DNA from: an uncultured Chlorobiota bacterium
Lineage (GTDB): Bacteria > Bacteroidota > Ignavibacteria > UBA10030 > UBA6906
Assembly (NCBI GenBank): GCA_900696645.1
Contig: CAADGV010000007.1
Location: 124,001-188,000, forward strand
DNA length: 64,000 nt
Direction of reading: 5' to 3'
A program made the position numbers and the translations under genes. The notes beneath the pieces were generated by a model, which was given only the letters and a program-made list of their open reading frames with translations, was not told the DNA's origin and did no database searches. Shown here one piece after another: positions 1,504 through 8,527 of this stretch. The first letter of the stretch is position 1, and each line of letters opens with the position of its first letter.

Positions 1504-2580
1504 ATGACAGCAAGAAAAGCCGGAGGTGCCACAACTGCAAGGCCAAGAAGGAAGGCGAGAACGGAAACGCGAAGAACGCCAAGCCGGCCTTTGAATCGAA
1601 GCCTTAGCGCCGCAAAGGCATCGAAGCAGGATGAGTTTTATACCCAGCTATCCGACATTGAGAAGGAGCTCCGGCACTACACGGCGCACTTCAAGGGCAA
1701 GACTGTCCTGTGCAACTGCGACGATCCCAAGGTCAGCAATTTCTTTCACTACTTCTCGCACAACTTCGAGAAGCTGAAGCTGAAAAAGCTGATCACTACT
1801 TGCTACAAGAATTGCGACGCCGATCTGTTTAGCAAGCACACGGATGAAAGAGGAATCTTTCTCGAATATAACGGCGACAAGAGTGGCAACCGCGTCCCCG
1901 ACCCGGAGGAAATCGGTATCCACCAGCTAAAAGGCGACGGCGATTTTCGCAGTGAGGAATGCATCAAGCTGCTCAAGCAAGCGGACATAGTAGTCACAAA
2001 TCCGCCGTTTTCGTTGTTCAGGGAGTACGTTGAGCAGTTGGTGAAGTACAAAAAGAAGTTTCTCATCATAGCGAACCACAACGCGATCACCTACAAAGAG
2101 ATTTTCCAGCTAATTAAGGAAAACAAGATTTGGCTGGGGTACACGCACCCGGTAGCCTTCATCGTCCCCGACCACTACGAAATGCGTGCAGTGAGAAGCT
2201 GGCGCGACGAAAATGGAACTAATTGGCGCAGTCTCGGAAATGCCTGCTGGTTTACGAACCTCGACATTGCGAAGCGACACGACGATTTGGTGCTCTACAG
2301 AGAATACTCGCGCAGGGAGTACCCAAAATACGACAATTACAATGCGATAGAAGTCGCAAGGGTCGCCGATATTCCGATAGATTTTGATGGAGTGATGGGC
2401 GTGCCGGTAACGTTCCTTGAAAAGTACAATCCCGACCAATTTGAAATTGTGGACGCCAATGACATACGTCGTCGGAAGTCCGTGGCAATCAAAGCTCACG
2501 GACTCATAAAGGACAAGGACAGCGCCATTAAAGGAAAGCCCACTTACGTACGAATTCCGATCAGGAAAAAGCGTGTATGA
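1504..2580 (+). CDS. EcoRI-family adenine-specific DNA methyltransferase
   Basis: This 358-aa protein belongs by its sequence to the EcoRI-type adenine methyltransferases, which transfer a methyl group from S-adenosylmethionine to N6 of adenine. The catalytic motif NPPF is at residues 166-169, followed by the family-typical SLFREYV stretch. The conserved entry motif DEFYTQ is at 43-48. The first 40 residues are strongly basic and low-complexity, unlike the family core, so a later start cannot be excluded. The stop codon overlaps the start of a DUF262-HNH nuclease gene (ATGA), so the two are translationally coupled and probably form a restriction-modification-like unit carried by the prophage. 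Confidence 0.85.
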   Translation: MTARKAGGATTARPRRKARTETRRTPSRPLNRSLSAAKASKQDEFYTQLSDIEKELRHYTAHFKGKTVLCNCDDPKVSNFFHYFSHNFEKLKLKKLITTCYKNCDADLFSKHTDERGIFLEYNGDKSGNRVPDPEEIGIHQLKGDGDFRSEECIKLLKQADIVVTNPPFSLFREYVEQLVKYKKKFLIIANHNAITYKEIFQLIKENKIWLGYTHPVAFIVPDHYEMRAVRSWRDENGTNWRSLGNACWFTNLDIAKRHDDLVLYREYSRREYPKYDNYNAIEVARVADIPIDFDGVMGVPVTFLEKYNPDQFEIVDANDIRRRKSVAIKAHGLIKDKDSAIKGKPTYVRIPIRKKRV

Positions 2581-3659
2581 AAATAGAACTCAAAGAAATC
2601 ACGATCAAGAAATTGACCGACGGCTTCCTCGACAGCGCCGAAGCGGGAGTTGTTGCGTACAGTGGCAAGCTCGACATCCGCCCACCGTACCAACGCGAAT
2701 TCATCTACAAAGACAAACAGCGGGACGCGGTGATCGATAGTGTCCGCAAAGACTTCCCGCTGAACGTGATGTATTGGGCGGTACGCAAGGATGGGCATTT
2801 TGAGGTAATCGACGGGCAGCAGCGCACGCTTTCGATTTGTCAGTACGTCAACGGGGACTTCTCCATCGACGGGCTTGCGTTTCACAACCTGCAAGATGAT
2901 CAACAAGAACAGATTCTCGGTTACAAATTGATGGTCTATTTCTGCTCCGGGACTGACAGCGAGAAGTTGGATTGGTTCAGAACCATCAACATCGCCGGTG
3001 AGGAACACACCGATCAGGAATTGCGCAATGCAGTCTATGCGGGGCCGTGGACTGCGGACGCCAAGCGTTATTTCAGCAAGACCGGCTGCCCGGCCTACGG
3101 ACTGGCGAGCGATTACATGCGCGGCAGCCCGATACGGCAGGACTATCTCGAAACAGCGATAGCGTGGCGCTCGGGTGGCGAGATCGAAGAGTACATGTCG
3201 AAGCACCAGCACGATAAGAACGCGACGCAGCTGTGGCAATACTTTCAGAAGGTCATTGCCTGGGTGAAAGCGACGTTTCCAGTGTATCGACGGGAGATGA
3301 AGGGGGTGGATTGGGGAGTTCTCTACAATCAGTTCAAGGACAAAGAGTTTGACACCGACAAGCTGGAGAGGCAGGTTGCCAAGCTGATGATGGACGACGA
3401 TGTGGGGCGGAAATCAGGAATCTACCCGTATGTGCTGGATGGGGATGAAAGGCATCTGAACATCAGGGCGTTCTCCGACAACATGAAGCGGGAAGCTTAC
3501 GAGAGGCAAAAGGGTGTCTGCGTGAAGTGCAAGAAAAAGTTCCAGTTGGACGAAATGGAGGCCGACCACATCAAGCCTTGGCACGAGGGGGGGAAGACCA
3601 CAGCCGCCAACTGCCAGATGCTATGCAAAGACGACAACCGAAGAAAATCGGGGAAATGA
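2577..3659 (+). CDS. DUF262-HNH nuclease
   Basis: This is a 360-aa two-domain protein. The N-terminal DUF262 domain carries DGQQR at residues 79-83, the nucleotide-binding motif of GmrS-like and related defence nucleases. The C-terminal part is a zinc-type HNH nuclease: C315 and C318, D330-H331, W335-H336, N345, C346 and C350. DUF262-HNH proteins cut DNA, often in an NTP- and modification-dependent way. Overlap with the upstream adenine methyltransferase suggests that methylation either protects against or directs this enzyme. Both nuclease and methyltransferase motifs appear intact. A hairpin with a U-rich tail follows about 80 nt after the stop. Confidence 0.85.
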   Translation: MKIELKEITIKKLTDGFLDSAEAGVVAYSGKLDIRPPYQREFIYKDKQRDAVIDSVRKDFPLNVMYWAVRKDGHFEVIDGQQRTLSICQYVNGDFSIDGLAFHNLQDDQQEQILGYKLMVYFCSGTDSEKLDWFRTINIAGEEHTDQELRNAVYAGPWTADAKRYFSKTGCPAYGLASDYMRGSPIRQDYLETAIAWRSGGEIEEYMSKHQHDKNATQLWQYFQKVIAWVKATFPVYRREMKGVDWGVLYNQFKDKEFDTDKLERQVAKLMMDDDVGRKSGIYPYVLDGDERHLNIRAFSDNMKREAYERQKGVCVKCKKKFQLDEMEADHIKPWHEGGKTTAANCQMLCKDDNRRKSGK

Positions 3660-3738
3660 AGTAGGAGTTCCCGGCTTCGGAGTTTCCCAGAAGCCCCAGA
3701 TACCCGTCACAGTACTCTCCGCGAGCTGTGACAGGTTA

Positions 3739-3780
3739 GGGCTAACAGGTGTTAGTGGTAGCACATGTTAGCCCGTTTTG
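3739..3780 (+). terminator. Probable terminator after the methyltransferase-nuclease unit
   Basis: A perfect 9-bp inverted repeat (gggctaaca at 3739-3747 and tgttagccc at 3766-3774) has an 18-nt loop and is followed by a U-rich tract broken by G (gttttgttg). A second inverted repeat (gtcacag at 3706-3712, ctgtgac at 3726-3732) lies just upstream. The arrangement fits a weak intrinsic terminator, but the interrupted U tract leaves other roles possible. Confidence 0.4.
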
Positions 3781-3793
3781 TTGCCCCCCCCAC

Positions 3794-3822
3794 TTGACAC
3801 GCGCGGGAGAATTCACTACATT
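3794..3822 (+). promoter_or_regulatory. Sigma-70 promoter of the small-RNA unit
   Basis: A perfect -35 box TTGACA (3794-3799) is separated by 17 nt from a TACATT -10 box (3817-3822, 4 of 6 consensus positions). An imperfect dyad (attcact at 3811, agtgtaat at 3829) spans the -10 box and could bind a repressor. The predicted start is near 3829, and an intrinsic terminator lies only about 100 nt downstream with no gene between. Confidence 0.55.
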
Positions 3823-3828
3823 CGTACC

Positions 3829-3930
3829 AGTGTAATCAGCGGGCAAGGCCCGCTCTGATGGTGACATAGACGACTCGGTCGTCCAATAACACGGAGCCGA
3901 GATCTCTCGAAAGAGAGGTCTCGGCTTTTT
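3829..3930 (+). ncRNA. Candidate structured small RNA of about 100 nt
   Basis: The segment between a sigma-70-type promoter and a strong terminator holds no convincing open frame but folds well. Hairpin 1 is agcgggc (3838-3844), loop aag, gcccgct (3848-3854), and can be extended by a flanking atc/gat pair across a 2-nt bulge. Hairpin 2 is gacga/tcgtc around 3869-3883. Hairpin 3 is the 14-bp terminator. I do not recognise it as a known RNA family. It lies between the methyltransferase-nuclease pair and the phage late genes, so an antisense or regulatory role toward one of them is possible but unproven. Confidence 0.45.
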
Positions 3931-3932
3931 TA
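3895..3932 (+). terminator. Strong intrinsic terminator with GAAA tetraloop
   Basis: The stem is agccgagatctctc (3895-3908) with gagaggtctcggct (3913-3926), 14 bp with one G-U pair. It is closed by a GAAA tetraloop (3909-3912) and followed by a U tract (about 3926-3930). It ends the short unit started by the promoter at 3794 and also separates the accessory genes from the head genes. Confidence 0.9.
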
Positions 3933-3989
3933 TTTTGTGCACCAACCAATCATCTGCCTGCCTCCGCCCACAGGCAAAGGGGAAACAAC

Positions 3990-4064
3990 TTGAAAGCCTC
4001 ATTGTTTTTCATGCCCTCCGTTCTGCTGGTATCCGTGTGGGTACTGGTGTGGGCACTCTCATAA
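3990..4064 (+). CDS. Possible 24-aa hydrophobic peptide
   Basis: A TTG codon preceded by AAAGGGG (about 7 nt spacing) opens a 24-codon frame ending at TAA 4062-4064. The product begins MKASLFF and continues as one hydrophobic segment rich in V, L and W, a plausible single membrane span. It lies just upstream of a coiled-coil protein and a two-span membrane protein. It could be a lysis-type peptide, a leader peptide or chance; there is no homology support. Confidence 0.25.
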   Translation: MKASLFFMPSVLLVSVWVLVWALS

Positions 4065-4078
4065 GAAGGATCTGAAAC

Positions 4079-4357
4079 ATGGCAAAGCTATCGAAGTCGC
4101 GACTCGAACAACGTGGTCAACTCGAAGAGTTCCGCGAAGAACTGAAGAGAAAGAAGTGGCATGCTGATGGCGTCGCGAAGAACATTGCCGACTTGCTCGC
4201 GCCGATGGATATTGCCGGCGACTATACGCTCGCGGTGAACGTGGAGCGGATGAAGGCGCATGCCACTGATCTCGGCCGGATTCAAAAACAGATGTTGAAG
4301 CTGCAAGATGAAATCGTGCGGCTCGAAGCGGAGTTGGGTGCCGAGGAGGGAGAATGA
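4079..4357 (+). CDS. Coiled-coil phage protein
   Basis: This 92-aa protein is highly charged with heptad-like spacing in its last 35 residues (IQKQMLKLQDEIVRLEAEL), suggesting a coiled coil that mediates oligomerisation. An AAGGAT sequence lies 8 nt upstream of the ATG. It overlaps the next gene by 4 nt, a two-span membrane protein. The pair resembles accessory or lysis-associated small genes of Mu-like phages, but I cannot assign a family. Confidence 0.6.
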   Translation: MAKLSKSRLEQRGQLEEFREELKRKKWHADGVAKNIADLLAPMDIAGDYTLAVNVERMKAHATDLGRIQKQMLKLQDEIVRLEAELGAEEGE

Positions 4358-4671
4358 AATACGCAGGATGGATCTCGACTGTGCTGGCGCTCTCGATTGT
4401 TTCTCTGTACCAGTCCCTGATACCGGACGACTTCACCCGCATGCTCGCATGGGCCGCTCCCTCCGGTGTTGCCCTGTTGGGTTGGATCATCCAGGTTGCA
4501 ACCTATCTGAAGAAGTTCAAAGACCTGCTTGTTGAGGCAGTTGTCGCCAGAGTGAAGAAAGAACTGAGTGAGATGGAACCGCGCATTGCATCGCGGTGCG
4601 TCGACGAAGTATGGAACCGTCTTGATACGATCAAGATGTTCACGAAGAACCCGGAGCCGGAGAAATCATGA
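4354..4671 (+). CDS. Two-span membrane protein, holin-like
   Basis: This 105-aa protein has two hydrophobic segments (about residues 5-23 and 32-52) and a charged, helical C-terminal half. The topology and size fit a phage holin, which makes inner-membrane holes at lysis. No endolysin gene is visible in the window, so the call is by topology only. It overlaps the gene before it and the protease gene after it by 4 nt, so all three are translated in a coupled row. Confidence 0.45.
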   Translation: MKYAGWISTVLALSIVSLYQSLIPDDFTRMLAWAAPSGVALLGWIIQVATYLKKFKDLLVEAVVARVKKELSEMEPRIASRCVDEVWNRLDTIKMFTKNPEPEKS

Positions 4672-5900
4672 AATTCAATCGTCATCAGCTACCTCACCAG
4701 CAACGCGGCGTGTTCTTGCTCGCAGCGGGCACGGATTTTCGCCGCGTTGCACCCGATTCGTTCCCACTACTCCCGGTCGGAGAATGGAACGGCTTCACGA
4801 ACATGGGAACGCAAAAGGCCCAGAAGCTTACCATCACCGAGCCGATGTTGCAGGCTGCCGTTGCCTATCAACAGCGACGCCTTCAACTCAATCCCGACAA
4901 GAAACTTGTCATCGACTACGAGCATCAGAGTCTTTCCGGCGACCTAGCACCAGCGGCGGGATGGATCTCCGGCTTGGCGATCAAGGACGGATGGTTGTGG
5001 GCAACGGGTGTTGAGTGGACGGAGAAAGCCAAAGGCTTTATCGAGAACGGTGAGTATAAGTACTACTCTCCGATGTTCGCTTTCAATTACAGAGACAAGG
5101 TGAGCGGTGAAACTGTTCCGCTTGCTGTGTTCGGAGCCGGCCTGACCAATGAACCATTTCTGGATGAGGTAGAAGACCTCGGACTGTTACAGGCTGCAAA
5201 GAGTAATCAACCAAAGCTGTATCAACTCAAACACAATAATCATGAGGAGACAATTCCTATGAATACCCTGCTTGCATTGCTCGCTTCGCTGTTCGGCGTT
5301 GCGGCAACGTCGGAAGAGAATGTTTTCGTTGCGAAGGCAAACGGCTTCATCGATCAGTTGAAACAATTAGGCGTATCGGTGAAAGACAACGCCGAGCTGA
5401 CGGCGGAGGCGATTGTCAATCACTTCAAAGGAGTGAACGACGAGCTTAAAGCGCTCAAGGCAAATTACGCACAAGTTGCGAAAGCGATCGGTGCGGCAGA
5501 GACTGATGGGCCGGAGAAGATCATTGCCCTCAGCGCACGTACCATGGACACGAATATCACAGCGTTGCGGTCGCAGGTAACGACGCTGGAGAACAGACTT
5601 GCTGAACGTGACGTTGACGATCTGCTCGCCGGCGCTCTGGCAAAAGGCAAGATCAGTCCGGCCATGAAAGAACACTACAAAAAGTACGCAATGAAGGATC
5701 GGGAAGGTTTTGTTGCGATGATGGCTGCGACGCCGGAGTACTCCGCGGTTCCTCTGAACAGAGTCGAGACGCCGGGTGCTGTTGCTGCAGCACATGATGA
5801 GAACGGGCAGCCTTCGGTCGAGACCATACAAGCGTATGCCGACAAGAACAAGCTCAGCTTCAAGGATGCTGCCATTGCATTGACGGTTCGAAAGAACTGA
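4668..5900 (+). CDS. Mu gpI-like prohead protease/scaffold fusion
   Basis: This 410-aa protein resembles the phage Mu I family. The N-terminal part (about 1-170) is the protease domain, with the conserved stretch VIDYEHQS near residues 82-89 and the downstream PAAGWISGL motif. The C-terminal part (about 198-410) is alpha-helical and charged like a scaffold. In Mu the protease processes the scaffold and head proteins during capsid maturation, and the scaffold is also made alone from an internal start. An in-frame ATG with its own SD at 5259 reproduces that layout. The gene overlaps the holin-like gene by 4 nt and precedes the decoration and capsid genes. Confidence 0.8.
   Translation: MKFNRHQLPHQQRGVFLLAAGTDFRRVAPDSFPLLPVGEWNGFTNMGTQKAQKLTITEPMLQAAVAYQQRRLQLNPDKKLVIDYEHQSLSGDLAPAAGWISGLAIKDGWLWATGVEWTEKAKGFIENGEYKYYSPMFAFNYRDKVSGETVPLAVFGAGLTNEPFLDEVEDLGLLQAAKSNQPKLYQLKHNNHEETIPMNTLLALLASLFGVAATSEENVFVAKANGFIDQLKQLGVSVKDNAELTAEAIVNHFKGVNDELKALKANYAQVAKAIGAAETDGPEKIIALSARTMDTNITALRSQVTTLENRLAERDVDDLLAGALAKGKISPAMKEHYKKYAMKDREGFVAMMAATPEYSAVPLNRVETPGAVAAAHDENGQPSVETIQAYADKNKLSFKDAAIALTVRKN
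5259..5900 (+). CDS. Nested scaffold protein inside the protease gene
   Basis: An internal ATG at 5259 lies in the same frame as the 4668-5900 gene and is preceded by GAGGAG (5244-5249) at 9-nt spacing, as good a ribosome site as those of the neighbouring genes. The product would be 213 aa covering only the helical scaffold part. Mu makes its scaffold (gpZ) from the 3' part of gene I, and lambda makes Nu3 inside gene C, so the architecture is established. Use of this particular start is inferred from the SD and the domain boundary. Confidence 0.6.
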   Translation: MNTLLALLASLFGVAATSEENVFVAKANGFIDQLKQLGVSVKDNAELTAEAIVNHFKGVNDELKALKANYAQVAKAIGAAETDGPEKIIALSARTMDTNITALRSQVTTLENRLAERDVDDLLAGALAKGKISPAMKEHYKKYAMKDREGFVAMMAATPEYSAVPLNRVETPGAVAAAHDENGQPSVETIQAYADKNKLSFKDAAIALTVRKN

Positions 5901-5958
5901 CGAGTTTCGCAGACGAAGAAAAACGATTGTCAAACAACATTTGAAAGGCTTGTGCATC

Positions 5959-6339
5959 ATGAATCCCATTCTTGAGACGACCCACATTGCAGCGAATGCG
6001 CTGACGGCAAAGCGCTGCGTTGTGCTCGACAACAATAACAAAGCAGACATGCCCGGCGGCGCCAATGCGGCCCGGTTCGGAGGTGTTTGCCAGGAAGGCG
6101 CTGCCCAAGGGGCGCCTGCTCGTATCTGCAGGATCGGAGAAGTCGAAGTGACAGCAGCGGCAGCGTTCAACGCCGGAGAGGAATTGATGATTGCCGCGAA
6201 CACCGGGAAGGTACAGAAGATTGGTGCAGTGGCAGCAACGGTGTACAACGTGGTCGGCATTGCCGTGGAGTCGGCAGCAGCGGACGGCGATATTGTGCGG
6301 ATGCTGATTGCTCCGAGTACGCACACGACACCGGCGTAA
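5959..6339 (+). CDS. Capsid decoration (cement) protein, DUF2190-like
   Basis: This 126-aa, alanine- and glycine-rich beta protein includes the pattern RFGGVCQEGAAQGAPARIC and a GEELMIAANTGKVQKI stretch, typical of the small head-decoration proteins that sit just before the major capsid gene in Mu-like and many siphovirus clusters. They bind the outside of the expanded capsid and stabilise it. The ATG at 5959 is chosen over an upstream TTG because an AAAGG element is 11 nt before it. Confidence 0.7.
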   Translation: MNPILETTHIAANALTAKRCVVLDNNNKADMPGGANAARFGGVCQEGAAQGAPARICRIGEVEVTAAAAFNAGEELMIAANTGKVQKIGAVAATVYNVVGIAVESAAADGDIVRMLIAPSTHTTPA

Positions 6340-6405
6340 GTCAGCGGCCGAAGGCGGAAAGTCAGATAGTCAGTTTTTCAATTCACATTTCACAAAGGAG
6401 TGAAC

Positions 6406-7413
6406 ATGTTCGGACAATTTGTAGTGCATGCCATGAGCATCATTTCGCTGCTTGCAGCGGTGATGGTGCTCTGGCATTTCAAAGCGATTCCCTTCGGGAT
6501 GAACATCCAGGGAGGCAGCCCGGCGGTGAACCCGATCCTCAGCAACATCGCCCTGCAGTATCGCAATACCAATTTCATTGCAGACCAGATTCTTCCGGTA
6601 CATTCCGTGGTGCAAAAAACCGGACGGTATCAGGTTTACGCCAAAGAGGACCGCTTCAACATCCATCCGACCAAGCTCGGACCGAAAGCCGAGGCGAGGG
6701 AGATTGAATGGAAGGTTGGAGAAGCCACATACACCTGTGAAGGAAACGCACTGAAAGACTTCGTCAGCGAGGAAGATGAAGCGAACGCTGCAAGTCCCAT
6801 TCAGCCGCAAGCCGACACCGTAGAGTTGTTGCAGGACTTGATGGAAGTTGCACGCGAGAAGCGTGTGAATGACCTGTTGGCTGCAAACGTGCCGGGTGCA
6901 AATGCTGGTGCGAAGTGGAACGTTGCCAACACCGATGTTATCGGTGACGTTCTCAATGCAGTGCAGCAGTGTTTTGCTCCGGCAAACACGGTGATCATGT
7001 CGAAGGATGTACTCTTCGCACTCGAGAAGAACACGGCCATCATGGAGCGCATCAAGTACAGCCAGCTCGGCGTGCTGACGACGGAACTGCTTGCGAAGTT
7101 CTTCAAAGTGGATCGTGTTCTGGTTGGCGACAGCAAGTACAACACGGCAAAGAAGGGACAAAATCCGACCTATGCCCAGATCTGGACAGACAACGTGTAC
7201 GTGTGCTACATCAACCCGCGGCCAACACCCAAGACGCTGACGCTTGGTCTGACGTTCGCTCAGCAAATCTTCAGCCAAGGTAAGTGGCGTGTACGTAGTT
7301 GGCGCGAAGAGAAGCGAGGCCTCGGCGGTGGCACGATGGTGCAGGTCGAGAATTGTATTGATGAACGATTGATGGCGACGGATGTTGCCTACGCCATCAA
7401 AGACGTTCTCTAA
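6406..7413 (+). CDS. Major capsid protein
   Basis: This 335-aa protein is the likely shell subunit: it follows protease/scaffold and decoration genes, and its core pattern NPILSNIALQYRN...FIADQI is typical of Mu/siphovirus-type major capsid proteins. AAAGGAG stands 5 nt before the ATG at 6406. The first 30 residues form a hydrophobic membrane-like segment that is odd for a shell protein. An in-frame ATG at 6499 (starting MNIQGGS) would remove it. The extension may be a targeting or cleaved delta-like piece, or 6499 may be the true start. Confidence 0.75.
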   Translation: MFGQFVVHAMSIISLLAAVMVLWHFKAIPFGMNIQGGSPAVNPILSNIALQYRNTNFIADQILPVHSVVQKTGRYQVYAKEDRFNIHPTKLGPKAEAREIEWKVGEATYTCEGNALKDFVSEEDEANAASPIQPQADTVELLQDLMEVAREKRVNDLLAANVPGANAGAKWNVANTDVIGDVLNAVQQCFAPANTVIMSKDVLFALEKNTAIMERIKYSQLGVLTTELLAKFFKVDRVLVGDSKYNTAKKGQNPTYAQIWTDNVYVCYINPRPTPKTLTLGLTFAQQIFSQGKWRVRSWREEKRGLGGGTMVQVENCIDERLMATDVAYAIKDVL

Positions 7414-7452
7414 GAATCGCGTGAAGGGGAGACGCGAATCATAGCGGCGGGG

Positions 7453-7512
7453 GCCCGGCAACGGGCTCTCGCTTGCGATAACAGAGGTCAGCCGTCCCGA
7501 CACATCGGGACG
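7453..7512 (+). other. Two hairpins between capsid and gp36-like genes
   Basis: The 128-nt gap holds gcccg-gcaa-cgggc (7453-7466) and an 8-bp perfect stem cgtcccga-caca-tcgggacg (7493-7512). Neither has a U tract, so they are more likely to be mRNA-processing or stability elements downstream of the highly expressed capsid gene than terminators. Confidence 0.4.
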
Positions 7513-7541
7513 AGCCTCGCCAAAGGCGGGAAGTCAGAAAG

Positions 7542-7979
7542 ATGGCATACTCAACACAGGCAGACATACTCGCAAGAATTTCTACGGAAGAGCTCTCACA
7601 GCTTACATCCGAAGCGGAGGGTGTCATCGACTCATCAATTGTTGATGAGATGATTGCAACTGCCGATGGTGAGATCGATGGCTATGTTGCCGTGCGTTAT
7701 TCCGTTCCTCTTGAAGATCCTCCGAAACTGATCAAGGTGTGCAGTATTTCAATTGCATTGTATCGTCTCTTTGAACGCCGTTCAAACCGGCTTGGCGGGA
7801 TAAACGATGCGATTAAGGATGGATATGAGAACGCCATTCACACGCTCAAAGCGATTGCGAGCGGCAAGCTCAGTCTCGGTGTTGACCCTCCGCCTCCTGC
7901 AAGTACGCAGGCAAGTGGTTCTCAGTTTATCAGCGGGGGAGACCGGGAATACACCAACGACACGCTGAAAGGTTTTTGA
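7542..7979 (+). CDS. Mu gp36-like protein (DUF1320)
   Basis: This 145-aa protein starts MAYSTQADILARIS and has an acidic helical N-terminus, then AYxxVRY-like and LYRLFERR stretches, as in the DUF1320/Mu gp36 family found just after the capsid gene. Members probably act at the head-tail connection. The C-terminal 35 residues are proline/serine/glycine-rich and probably disordered. The stop is 2 nt before the next start codon. Confidence 0.75.
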   Translation: MAYSTQADILARISTEELSQLTSEAEGVIDSSIVDEMIATADGEIDGYVAVRYSVPLEDPPKLIKVCSISIALYRLFERRSNRLGGINDAIKDGYENAIHTLKAIASGKLSLGVDPPPPASTQASGSQFISGGDREYTNDTLKGF

Positions 7980-7981
7980 GA

Positions 7982-8527
7982 ATGTCAGAAGTCCGGGGCA
8001 TTGACATAGTGAATGCGAAGATCGAGCGCATGCTTGCCGTTGGCGGATTGGATCGTGAGGCGTATTTAGAGCTTGCAAACATTTTGAAAAGCGAGATGCA
8101 GGAAAACTTCCGCGTTGGCGGCCGCCCTACGGCGTGGAAGCCGTCAGAGCGTGTGCGCCGCAAGGGCGGACAAACTCTGCGGCTTACAGGCCGCTTGATG
8201 AATTCACTCACTGCTTTTGCTGACGACACGGGGGGAGGCGTCGGCACGAATGTGAAGTACGCTGCCATTCATAATTTTGGTGGCGACATCGTTCGTCATG
8301 CTCACTCACGAATCGGGGTAGAATTCAGGAGGCCGAAGCGGGGAAAGTTTGCAGGGAAGCAGATTTTTGCCAAACGAGGAACCGGTTCAATCAAGAAGAA
8401 TATCTCGGTTGGGCAATATATCATCACAATTGATCCTCGCCCATTCGACTACATCTCCCCCCAAGGACGCAGTGATATTATCAAAGCAGCCGGCCGTCGT
8501 CTCATTGTCGGAGCGACAGATGGCTGA
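7982..8527 (+). CDS. Virion morphogenesis / tail completion protein (Mu gpG-like)
   Basis: This 181-aa protein has the family pattern of Mu gpG/phage tail-completion proteins: an N-terminal helix, then WKPSERVRRKGGQTLRLTG and the GTNVKYAAIHNFGG segment. This family helps join tail to head. I prefer the ATG at 7982 over an upstream TTG. Its end overlaps the next gene by 8 nt. Confidence 0.8.
   Translation: MSEVRGIDIVNAKIERMLAVGGLDREAYLELANILKSEMQENFRVGGRPTAWKPSERVRRKGGQTLRLTGRLMNSLTAFADDTGGGVGTNVKYAAIHNFGGDIVRHAHSRIGVEFRRPKRGKFAGKQIFAKRGTGSIKKNISVGQYIITIDPRPFDYISPQGRSDIIKAAGRRLIVGATDG

Follow-up and report, generated by a model that had tools for sequence, protein, structure and literature searches.

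The first 20.7 kb or so of the window (the whole 64,000-nucleotide stretch of DNA analysed here) form the right part of a Mu-like prophage, inside which the window begins. Genes for MuA, a MuB-like protein, GemA, Gam, an amidase, TerS and TerL lie on the minus strand of the flanking sequence (L003). On the plus strand, the prophage carries a repressor-like gene, an EcoRI-type methylase, a GmrSD_N/HNH nuclease, the transcription unit studied here, and then protease, head and tail genes. The initial annotation had described a 420-nt gap between a methyltransferase-nuclease pair and phage late genes; the gap (3660-4078) measures 419 nt, and its neighbors are as described, with the methylase and nuclease on the left and Mu-type late genes on the right. 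The unit is located directly in front of the late head operon. The start of this operon, which the switch proposed below would control (4079-8527, plus strand), encodes proteins of 92 and 105 aa, followed by the Mu-like protease/scaffold (4668-5900), the major head protein (6400-7413), Gp36 (7542-7979) and the tail completion protein (7976-8527), all on the plus strand. A hydrophobic ORF of 24 aa (MKASLFFMPSVLLVSVWVLVWALS, 3990-4064, plus strand) with a ribosome-binding-like sequence is possibly a remnant of the membrane protein of 217-234 aa that heads the late operon in relatives.

The methylase-nuclease pair probably has its own terminator, and the unit therefore belongs to the late operon. 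The likely terminator, which would isolate the switch from the upstream operon, is a stem-loop at 3739-3774 on the plus strand (GGGCTAACA..TGTTAGCCC, then GTTTTGTT; dG -23, z -3.8). The pair itself (1504-3659), in which the EcoRI-type adenine methylase (PF13651, E 6e-139) adjoins a GmrSD_N(DUF262)-HNH nuclease, is an unusual restriction-modification pair and prophage cargo. Further upstream, a protein of 184 aa (256-810) with a C-terminal C-x2-C..H..C-x-C pattern (CSACKRGK...HWGCRCG) had no match in Pfam or PHROG and resembles the C-terminus of Mu F-like proteins.

The unit begins with the promoter that had been pointed out before, TTGACA-17-TACATT (3794-3822, plus strand), with the -35 element TTGACA at 3794-3799, a spacer of 17 nt and the -10 element TACATT at 3817-3822. 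The quality of the match is by itself not above chance (2 found versus 1.4 expected in shuffles of a 3-kb stretch). The promoter nevertheless stands above chance, because a TTGA-type -35 element, a 17-nt spacer (16 in one case) and a TANNTT -10 element recur before most related units. Across the host genome, TTGACA-N16-18-TANNNT is enriched (148 matches versus 70 in the control). Transcription would start near 3829, and from promoter and terminator together a terminated leader transcript of about 104 nt (3829-3932, plus strand) is predicted, which folds far better than shuffled sequences (z -6.4). The intrinsic terminator (3893-3934, plus strand) is strong and has the GAAA loop that had been noted; its stem (3893-3928) consists of 16 rather than 14 pairs and is followed by a T-rich tail. 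Presumably the promoter is active and the terminator functional in the host, and a short terminated RNA of about 100 nt, which is expected from the unit, may exist.

The two additional hairpins of the initial annotation are also predicted by folding. The first (3838-3854, plus strand) is not conserved in relatives, where minimal units lack it. The second (GACGAC-UCG-GUCGUC, 3869-3883, plus strand) would sequester the 5' strand of the antiterminator hairpin described below, in the window copy only; the GACGAC arm is missing from the second unit of the prophage (unit B) and from other copies. A coding-potential check agreed with the earlier statement that the unit has no good open frame: there is none on the plus strand and no conserved reading frame, and an antisense ORF of 86 aa (3742-4002) had no counterpart that could be seen in relatives. 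The covariance-model search that had been suggested for the segment yielded no Rfam family, as the whole window gave no match at the curated threshold and the unit gave chance matches only at a relaxed one.

A DNA similarity search of the gap against known phages returned nothing, and searches of viral and genome contigs with the major head protein detected no relatives. With the protease as bait, four related prophages from the same bacterial order were found. In all three for which the upstream region was available, the same late genes are preceded by a TTGAC-type promoter and a short leader, followed by a strong terminator. DNA similarity is lost in these relatives, yet the architecture of the unit is kept immediately 5' of the late genes. 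Unit B precedes the TerS gene of the own prophage on the other strand, and the two units have a word in common, which occurs twice in the 4.2-Mb genome, once before each late operon of the prophage.

The family was assembled by scanning viral and genome collections with patterns and profiles. It contains 29 units in 16 related phages from this bacterial order and from metagenomes, with 2-3 units per phage that are always located 5' of late genes. Its named members come from one Ignavibacteriales and one Bacteroidota metagenome-assembled genome, so the host probably belongs to that group. Not counted separately were G398 and L042 (near-identical to G066), L197 (identical to L196) and G093 (same genome as G396). 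A unit, in some cases with a shorter loop, precedes TerS in 15 of the 15 phages where this region was readable (all but G400). The terminator lies about 10-70 nt before the TerS start codon, which therefore leaves little or no room for another promoter. Six units lack a good -35 element (the own unit B, the TerS copies of G394, G396 and G397, G394_head and L196) and may depend on read-through or on another promoter type. Leader length and the sequence outside antiterminator and terminator are not conserved among the 29 units: extra hairpins come and go, and in the shortest leaders the word is preceded by no more than about 10 nt. Between the -35 element and the motif there are 45 to 131 nt, while the distance from the element to the terminator is fixed by their overlap, and the element therefore works with the terminator.

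Some copies depart from the simple arrangement. The late unit of G399 (L044:4356-4540) has tandem antiterminator hairpins before the terminator in one leader, namely two near-identical copies and a short-loop one at the terminator, and degenerate upstream copies of the hairpin are found in L091 and L196. Matches to the motif pattern in L025, L026, L028, L031, L032, L035-L037, L039, L040 and most of L179-L195 had no terminator and were set aside as chance or coding sequence. One of the related phages (G394) also encodes a protein with an Acb2/Tad1 hairpin domain (L155:4438-4824, plus strand; PF24729), possibly a counter-defence protein.

Folded with its flanks, the conserved word forms one hairpin shape in nearly all copies. 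In the window, this antiterminator hairpin occupies 3874-3901 of the plus strand, as indicated by folding, by covariation and by a match to the covariance model R1 (3865-3905, E 2e-8). Its outer helix P1 pairs CUCGGU (3874-3879) with GCCGAG (3896-3901), two nucleotides bulge out on the 5' side (3880-3881), the inner helix P2 pairs UCC (3882-3884) with GGA (3893-3895), and the A-rich loop AAUAACAC (3885-3892) has 8 nt. In the consensus, the last pairs of the outer helix are GGU/GCC, followed by 2 bulged nucleotides in the 5' strand, an inner helix of 3 bp and a loop of 8 nt (RAUMAYAA), or of 5 to 7 nt in some phages. P2 occurs as UCC/GGA, UUC/GAA, ACC/GGU, UCG/CGA, GAC/GUC, GUC/GAC, CGC/GCG and GGC/GCC.

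The compensating base changes that the initial annotation had proposed to look for were found when related units were compared. In P2, 62 of 63 cells are paired across 21 sequences, with 15 double changes and 1 break (54 of 54 cells and 11 double changes in a set of 18 sequences). For the whole antiterminator, the 21 sequences contain 27 double-changed cells, versus 8.3 in shuffles (0/500 shuffles), and 84% of cells are paired, versus 31-51% when the structure is slid. The four outer pairs of P1 are formed in only about 52-76% of copies; they also covary, and an independent permutation test of these positions gave p = 0.003. The GGU/GCC pairs of P1 hardly vary and for this reason contribute little covariation support. 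As judged from the sequence comparison, the conserved core is the antiterminator hairpin and not the two extra hairpins. Low structural conservation had been named as an outcome that would speak against a small RNA; structure is conserved, but it is the structure of a cis-element.

The same covariation bears on a different reading of the word as DNA, namely as an operator (palindrome GTTATNCGATAAC) for a phage activator of the winged-helix or DnaA-domain-IV-like type. In its favor, the word is a near-perfect DNA palindrome in some copies, and winged-helix proteins are found among the phage gene products, along with a DnaA-C-like protein in the own prophage. The palindrome, however, accounts for 0 double changes, against 22-27 for the bulged hairpin, and the copies with loops of 5 nt have no palindrome altogether. 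The operator or DnaA-box-like reading of the motif was rejected for its lack of covariation, and we regard it as extremely improbable. The DnaA-C-like protein (L003:6284-6832, minus strand) has weak similarity to the C-terminal DNA-binding domain of DnaA, is encoded between middle and lysis genes, and was found only in the own phage.

Eighteen units of the bulged hairpin went into model R1. Among 391 genomes of the class, R1 matches with E<1e-6 were found only in genomes carrying this prophage, and among 395 genomes of the phylum, a match with E below 1e-6 was found only in the own genome. Weaker matches elsewhere in the class (E 1e-3 to 0.05) were taken as chance, as those that were inspected did not show the core followed by a terminator. 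For an out-of-sample test, the phage protein P0001, described below, was used as the sole bait in viral contigs, and new contigs with the same terminase lineage were counted. The element was present directly before TerS in 5 of 5 further phages. L196/L197 (one phage) and L199 match R1 at E below 1e-9, L204 has a weak match in the short-loop form, and L200 and L205 have short-loop forms that were found by a structure script and by eye. L207, in which P0001 matched over part of its length only, is without a related terminase.

In every unit, one strand serves both hairpins, as 3' strand of the antiterminator and as 5' arm of the terminator, and the two are therefore mutually exclusive. The general hallmark of a terminator/antiterminator switch is thereby present, with two mutually exclusive hairpins that share a strand and a downstream one that is an intrinsic terminator. 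Predicted energies are -7 to -13 kcal/mol for the antiterminator versus -28 to -47 kcal/mol for the terminator. The partial transcript 3829-3901 folds exactly as the antiterminator, the full leader as the terminator. G060_head and L205 have an extra A-U pair in the antiterminator and a matching change in the 3' arm of the terminator, which is what one would predict for a shared strand that has to pair in either hairpin. With exclusive hairpins and terminators that abut TerS, default termination with regulated read-through is the economical reading.

Together, these observations make it likely that the unit acts as promoter and leader of the late (head) operon of the prophage, under the control of a terminator/antiterminator RNA switch. 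Transcription by the host polymerase would start near 3829, and the hairpin at 3874-3901 would form first in the nascent RNA. Once 3902-3928 had been made, the stronger terminator would take over the 3' strand of the hairpin and displace it, and transcription would end at about 3932; in the lysogen, this would be the default. During lytic growth, a factor acting in trans, in all likelihood a protein of the phage, would bind the bulge and the conserved A-rich loop and hold the antiterminator, so that polymerase could read on into the late genes. The second copy would act likewise at the terminase operon on the other strand, and one factor could turn on both late operons. The sequence comparison shows the positions, the recurring architecture, the covarying antiterminator and its overlap with the terminator, and from these we infer promoter activity, the direction of the switch, increased read-through during lytic growth, and a factor together with its identity. 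A ligand or a host protein in place of the phage factor, or no factor at all, is possible.

If the arrangement were a plain terminator with a hairpin in the 5' UTR and no regulation, serving as a transcription insulator between operons, a conserved, covarying competing hairpin would have no role. Most units, furthermore, are equipped with a promoter that points into the terminator. Strong terminators do commonly separate operons, and some TerS copies are without a clear promoter; even so, we consider this explanation very unlikely.

The locus had initially been interpreted as a likely small RNA. The compact promoter-to-terminator unit and the expected RNA of about 100 nt remain from this interpretation, but the conserved part is a hairpin in cis that competes with the terminator. 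A small RNA acting in trans would pair, as a product of about 104 nt, with mRNAs of the methylase-nuclease pair, the late genes or the host, and control in cis would be secondary or absent. Promoter and terminator do bracket about 104 nt, and StxS, which derives from pR'-tR', shows that by-product leaders of phage late promoters can be functional small RNAs (PMC7873438). However, promoter and terminator recur among the units and the transcript body does not, with minimal units of about 10 nt before the hairpin. There are several copies per phage, always abutting late genes. In addition, a terminated product cannot keep the conserved hairpin intact, and selection therefore acts on the un-terminated state. 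A trans-acting small RNA is thus quite unlikely. Among the targets that had been envisaged (the methylase-nuclease pair, the late genes or a host gene), the late genes are retained, with evidence for action in cis, as the hairpin is always immediately 5' of late genes and is present two to three times per phage.

Processive antitermination of the lambda Q or HK022 put type, in which a factor or the RNA itself would load onto polymerase near the promoter, with the hairpin as the loading site, and modify it to ignore the terminator, is likewise unlikely. The position of the unit just 5' of the late genes mirrors lambda pR'-tR', and HK022 put is a structured RNA that acts without a protein (PMC9378689). 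A loading site need not overlap a terminator, however, whereas the element keeps a fixed position at the terminator, whose 5' arm it overlaps, and lies at a variable distance from the promoter. Nor did the early and middle genes tested match any known antiterminator family.

The protein that would hold the antiterminator in the proposed switch was sought among the genes of these phages. No Mor/C, Q, ANTAR or CAT-domain proteins were found among the early and middle proteins tested of two phages (the own phage and G394), and Q-family proteins in particular had no Pfam or PHROGs match among the proteins tested. The candidate factor is P0001 (L003:8328-8759, minus strand), a winged-helix protein of about 140 aa that is present in all family phages whose sequence allowed the check and has no match in 50,697 known phage records. 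An AlphaFold model (pLDDT 80) has a C-terminal winged helix, and a fold search returned generic winged-helix matches only, none with E below 1e-3. P0001 and the element accompany each other in both directions; this also holds for other genes of the phage clade, and the link may be one of shared descent. It is plausible, though somewhat more doubtful than probable, that the hairpins form a new family of RNA antiterminators, served by a dedicated RNA-binding regulator from the phage (candidate P0001), and that this system replaces activator-based late control in this clade of Mu-like phages, one protein switching on all late operons by holding the same hairpin before each.

P0001 and its homologues have a conserved (G/N)xPLF near the N-terminus that is reminiscent of a sliding-clamp-binding motif and might couple late transcription to replication. 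A second candidate regulator is a small protein (L139:7697-7987, plus strand, and 7 homologues) with a conserved Cys/His pattern and a C-terminal RKDPRF motif, present in most family phages. Further candidates are a winged-helix homologue of 191 aa (L155:2047-2619) and a protein of 60-83 aa encoded upstream of TerS.

Temperate phages are known to turn on their late genes with activators (Mu C), by processive antitermination (lambda Q) or through new sigma factors, and bacteria control sugar or nitrogen genes by local RNA hairpin switches. For this Mu-like clade, the comparative evidence suggests a different route of late control, a local hairpin switch before each late operon. Searches of open-licence papers turned up no account of a switch of this kind at late operons of phages. 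The switch offers an experimental entry point to the lysis decision in phages from a group of bacteria that has received little study; R1 defines a searchable RNA family, and the switch predicts a phage RNA-binding protein.

Among known systems, the RAT elements of BglG, LicT and SacY are bulged hairpins whose 3' part overlaps the 5' arm of a terminator, the protein holding the weaker structure (PMC3369936). The element is similar in having a bulged hairpin that overlaps the terminator 5' arm and in the mutually exclusive structures. Unlike RAT, which has two asymmetric internal loops, it has a single 2-nt bulge on the 5' side, an inner helix of 3 bp and an A-rich loop of 5-8 nt; no CAT/PRD protein is encoded by the phage genes tested, and the genes it would control are phage late genes and not sugar operons. 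In eut operons, which are regulated by ANTAR proteins (AmiR/NasR/EutV), several terminators per locus are each preceded by the same kind of overlapping hairpin (PMC3369936). This is also the arrangement here. ANTAR targets, in contrast, consist of two hairpins, P1 and P2, with a critical A1 and G4 in each loop, whereas one hairpin suffices here, the loop (RAUMAYAA or 5 nt) does not fit, and there is no ANTAR protein among the genes tested.

In the StxS region, which is of the lambda pR'-tR' type, termination is the default in the lysogen (PMC7873438). With lambda pR'-6S-tR' the unit shares a constitutive-looking promoter and a short leader that runs into a terminator right in front of late genes. 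Paused polymerase is the target of lambda Q, which works from a DNA site at the promoter. The element, by contrast, is RNA-structured, fixed to the terminator and 45-131 nt from the -35 element, and no Q-like protein was found. HK022 put is a cis-acting phage RNA of about 70 nt with two stem-loops and two copies per genome, which promotes read-through by acting on polymerase at a distance in early operons (PMC9378689). Like put, the element is a phage-encoded RNA structure in cis, here proposed to promote read-through, with two copies per genome; unlike put, it is a single hairpin that physically overlaps its own terminator. In phage Mu, late control is exerted by the activators Mor and C. The logic of the gene order is similar, with an early operon containing MuA/MuB and then late operons, but no Mor/C family match was found among the early and middle proteins tested of two phages, and control appears to take place after initiation. 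Because the defining features of the RAT, ANTAR, Q and put families are absent where tested, the element is regarded as a new variant within the terminator/antiterminator kind and outside these families.
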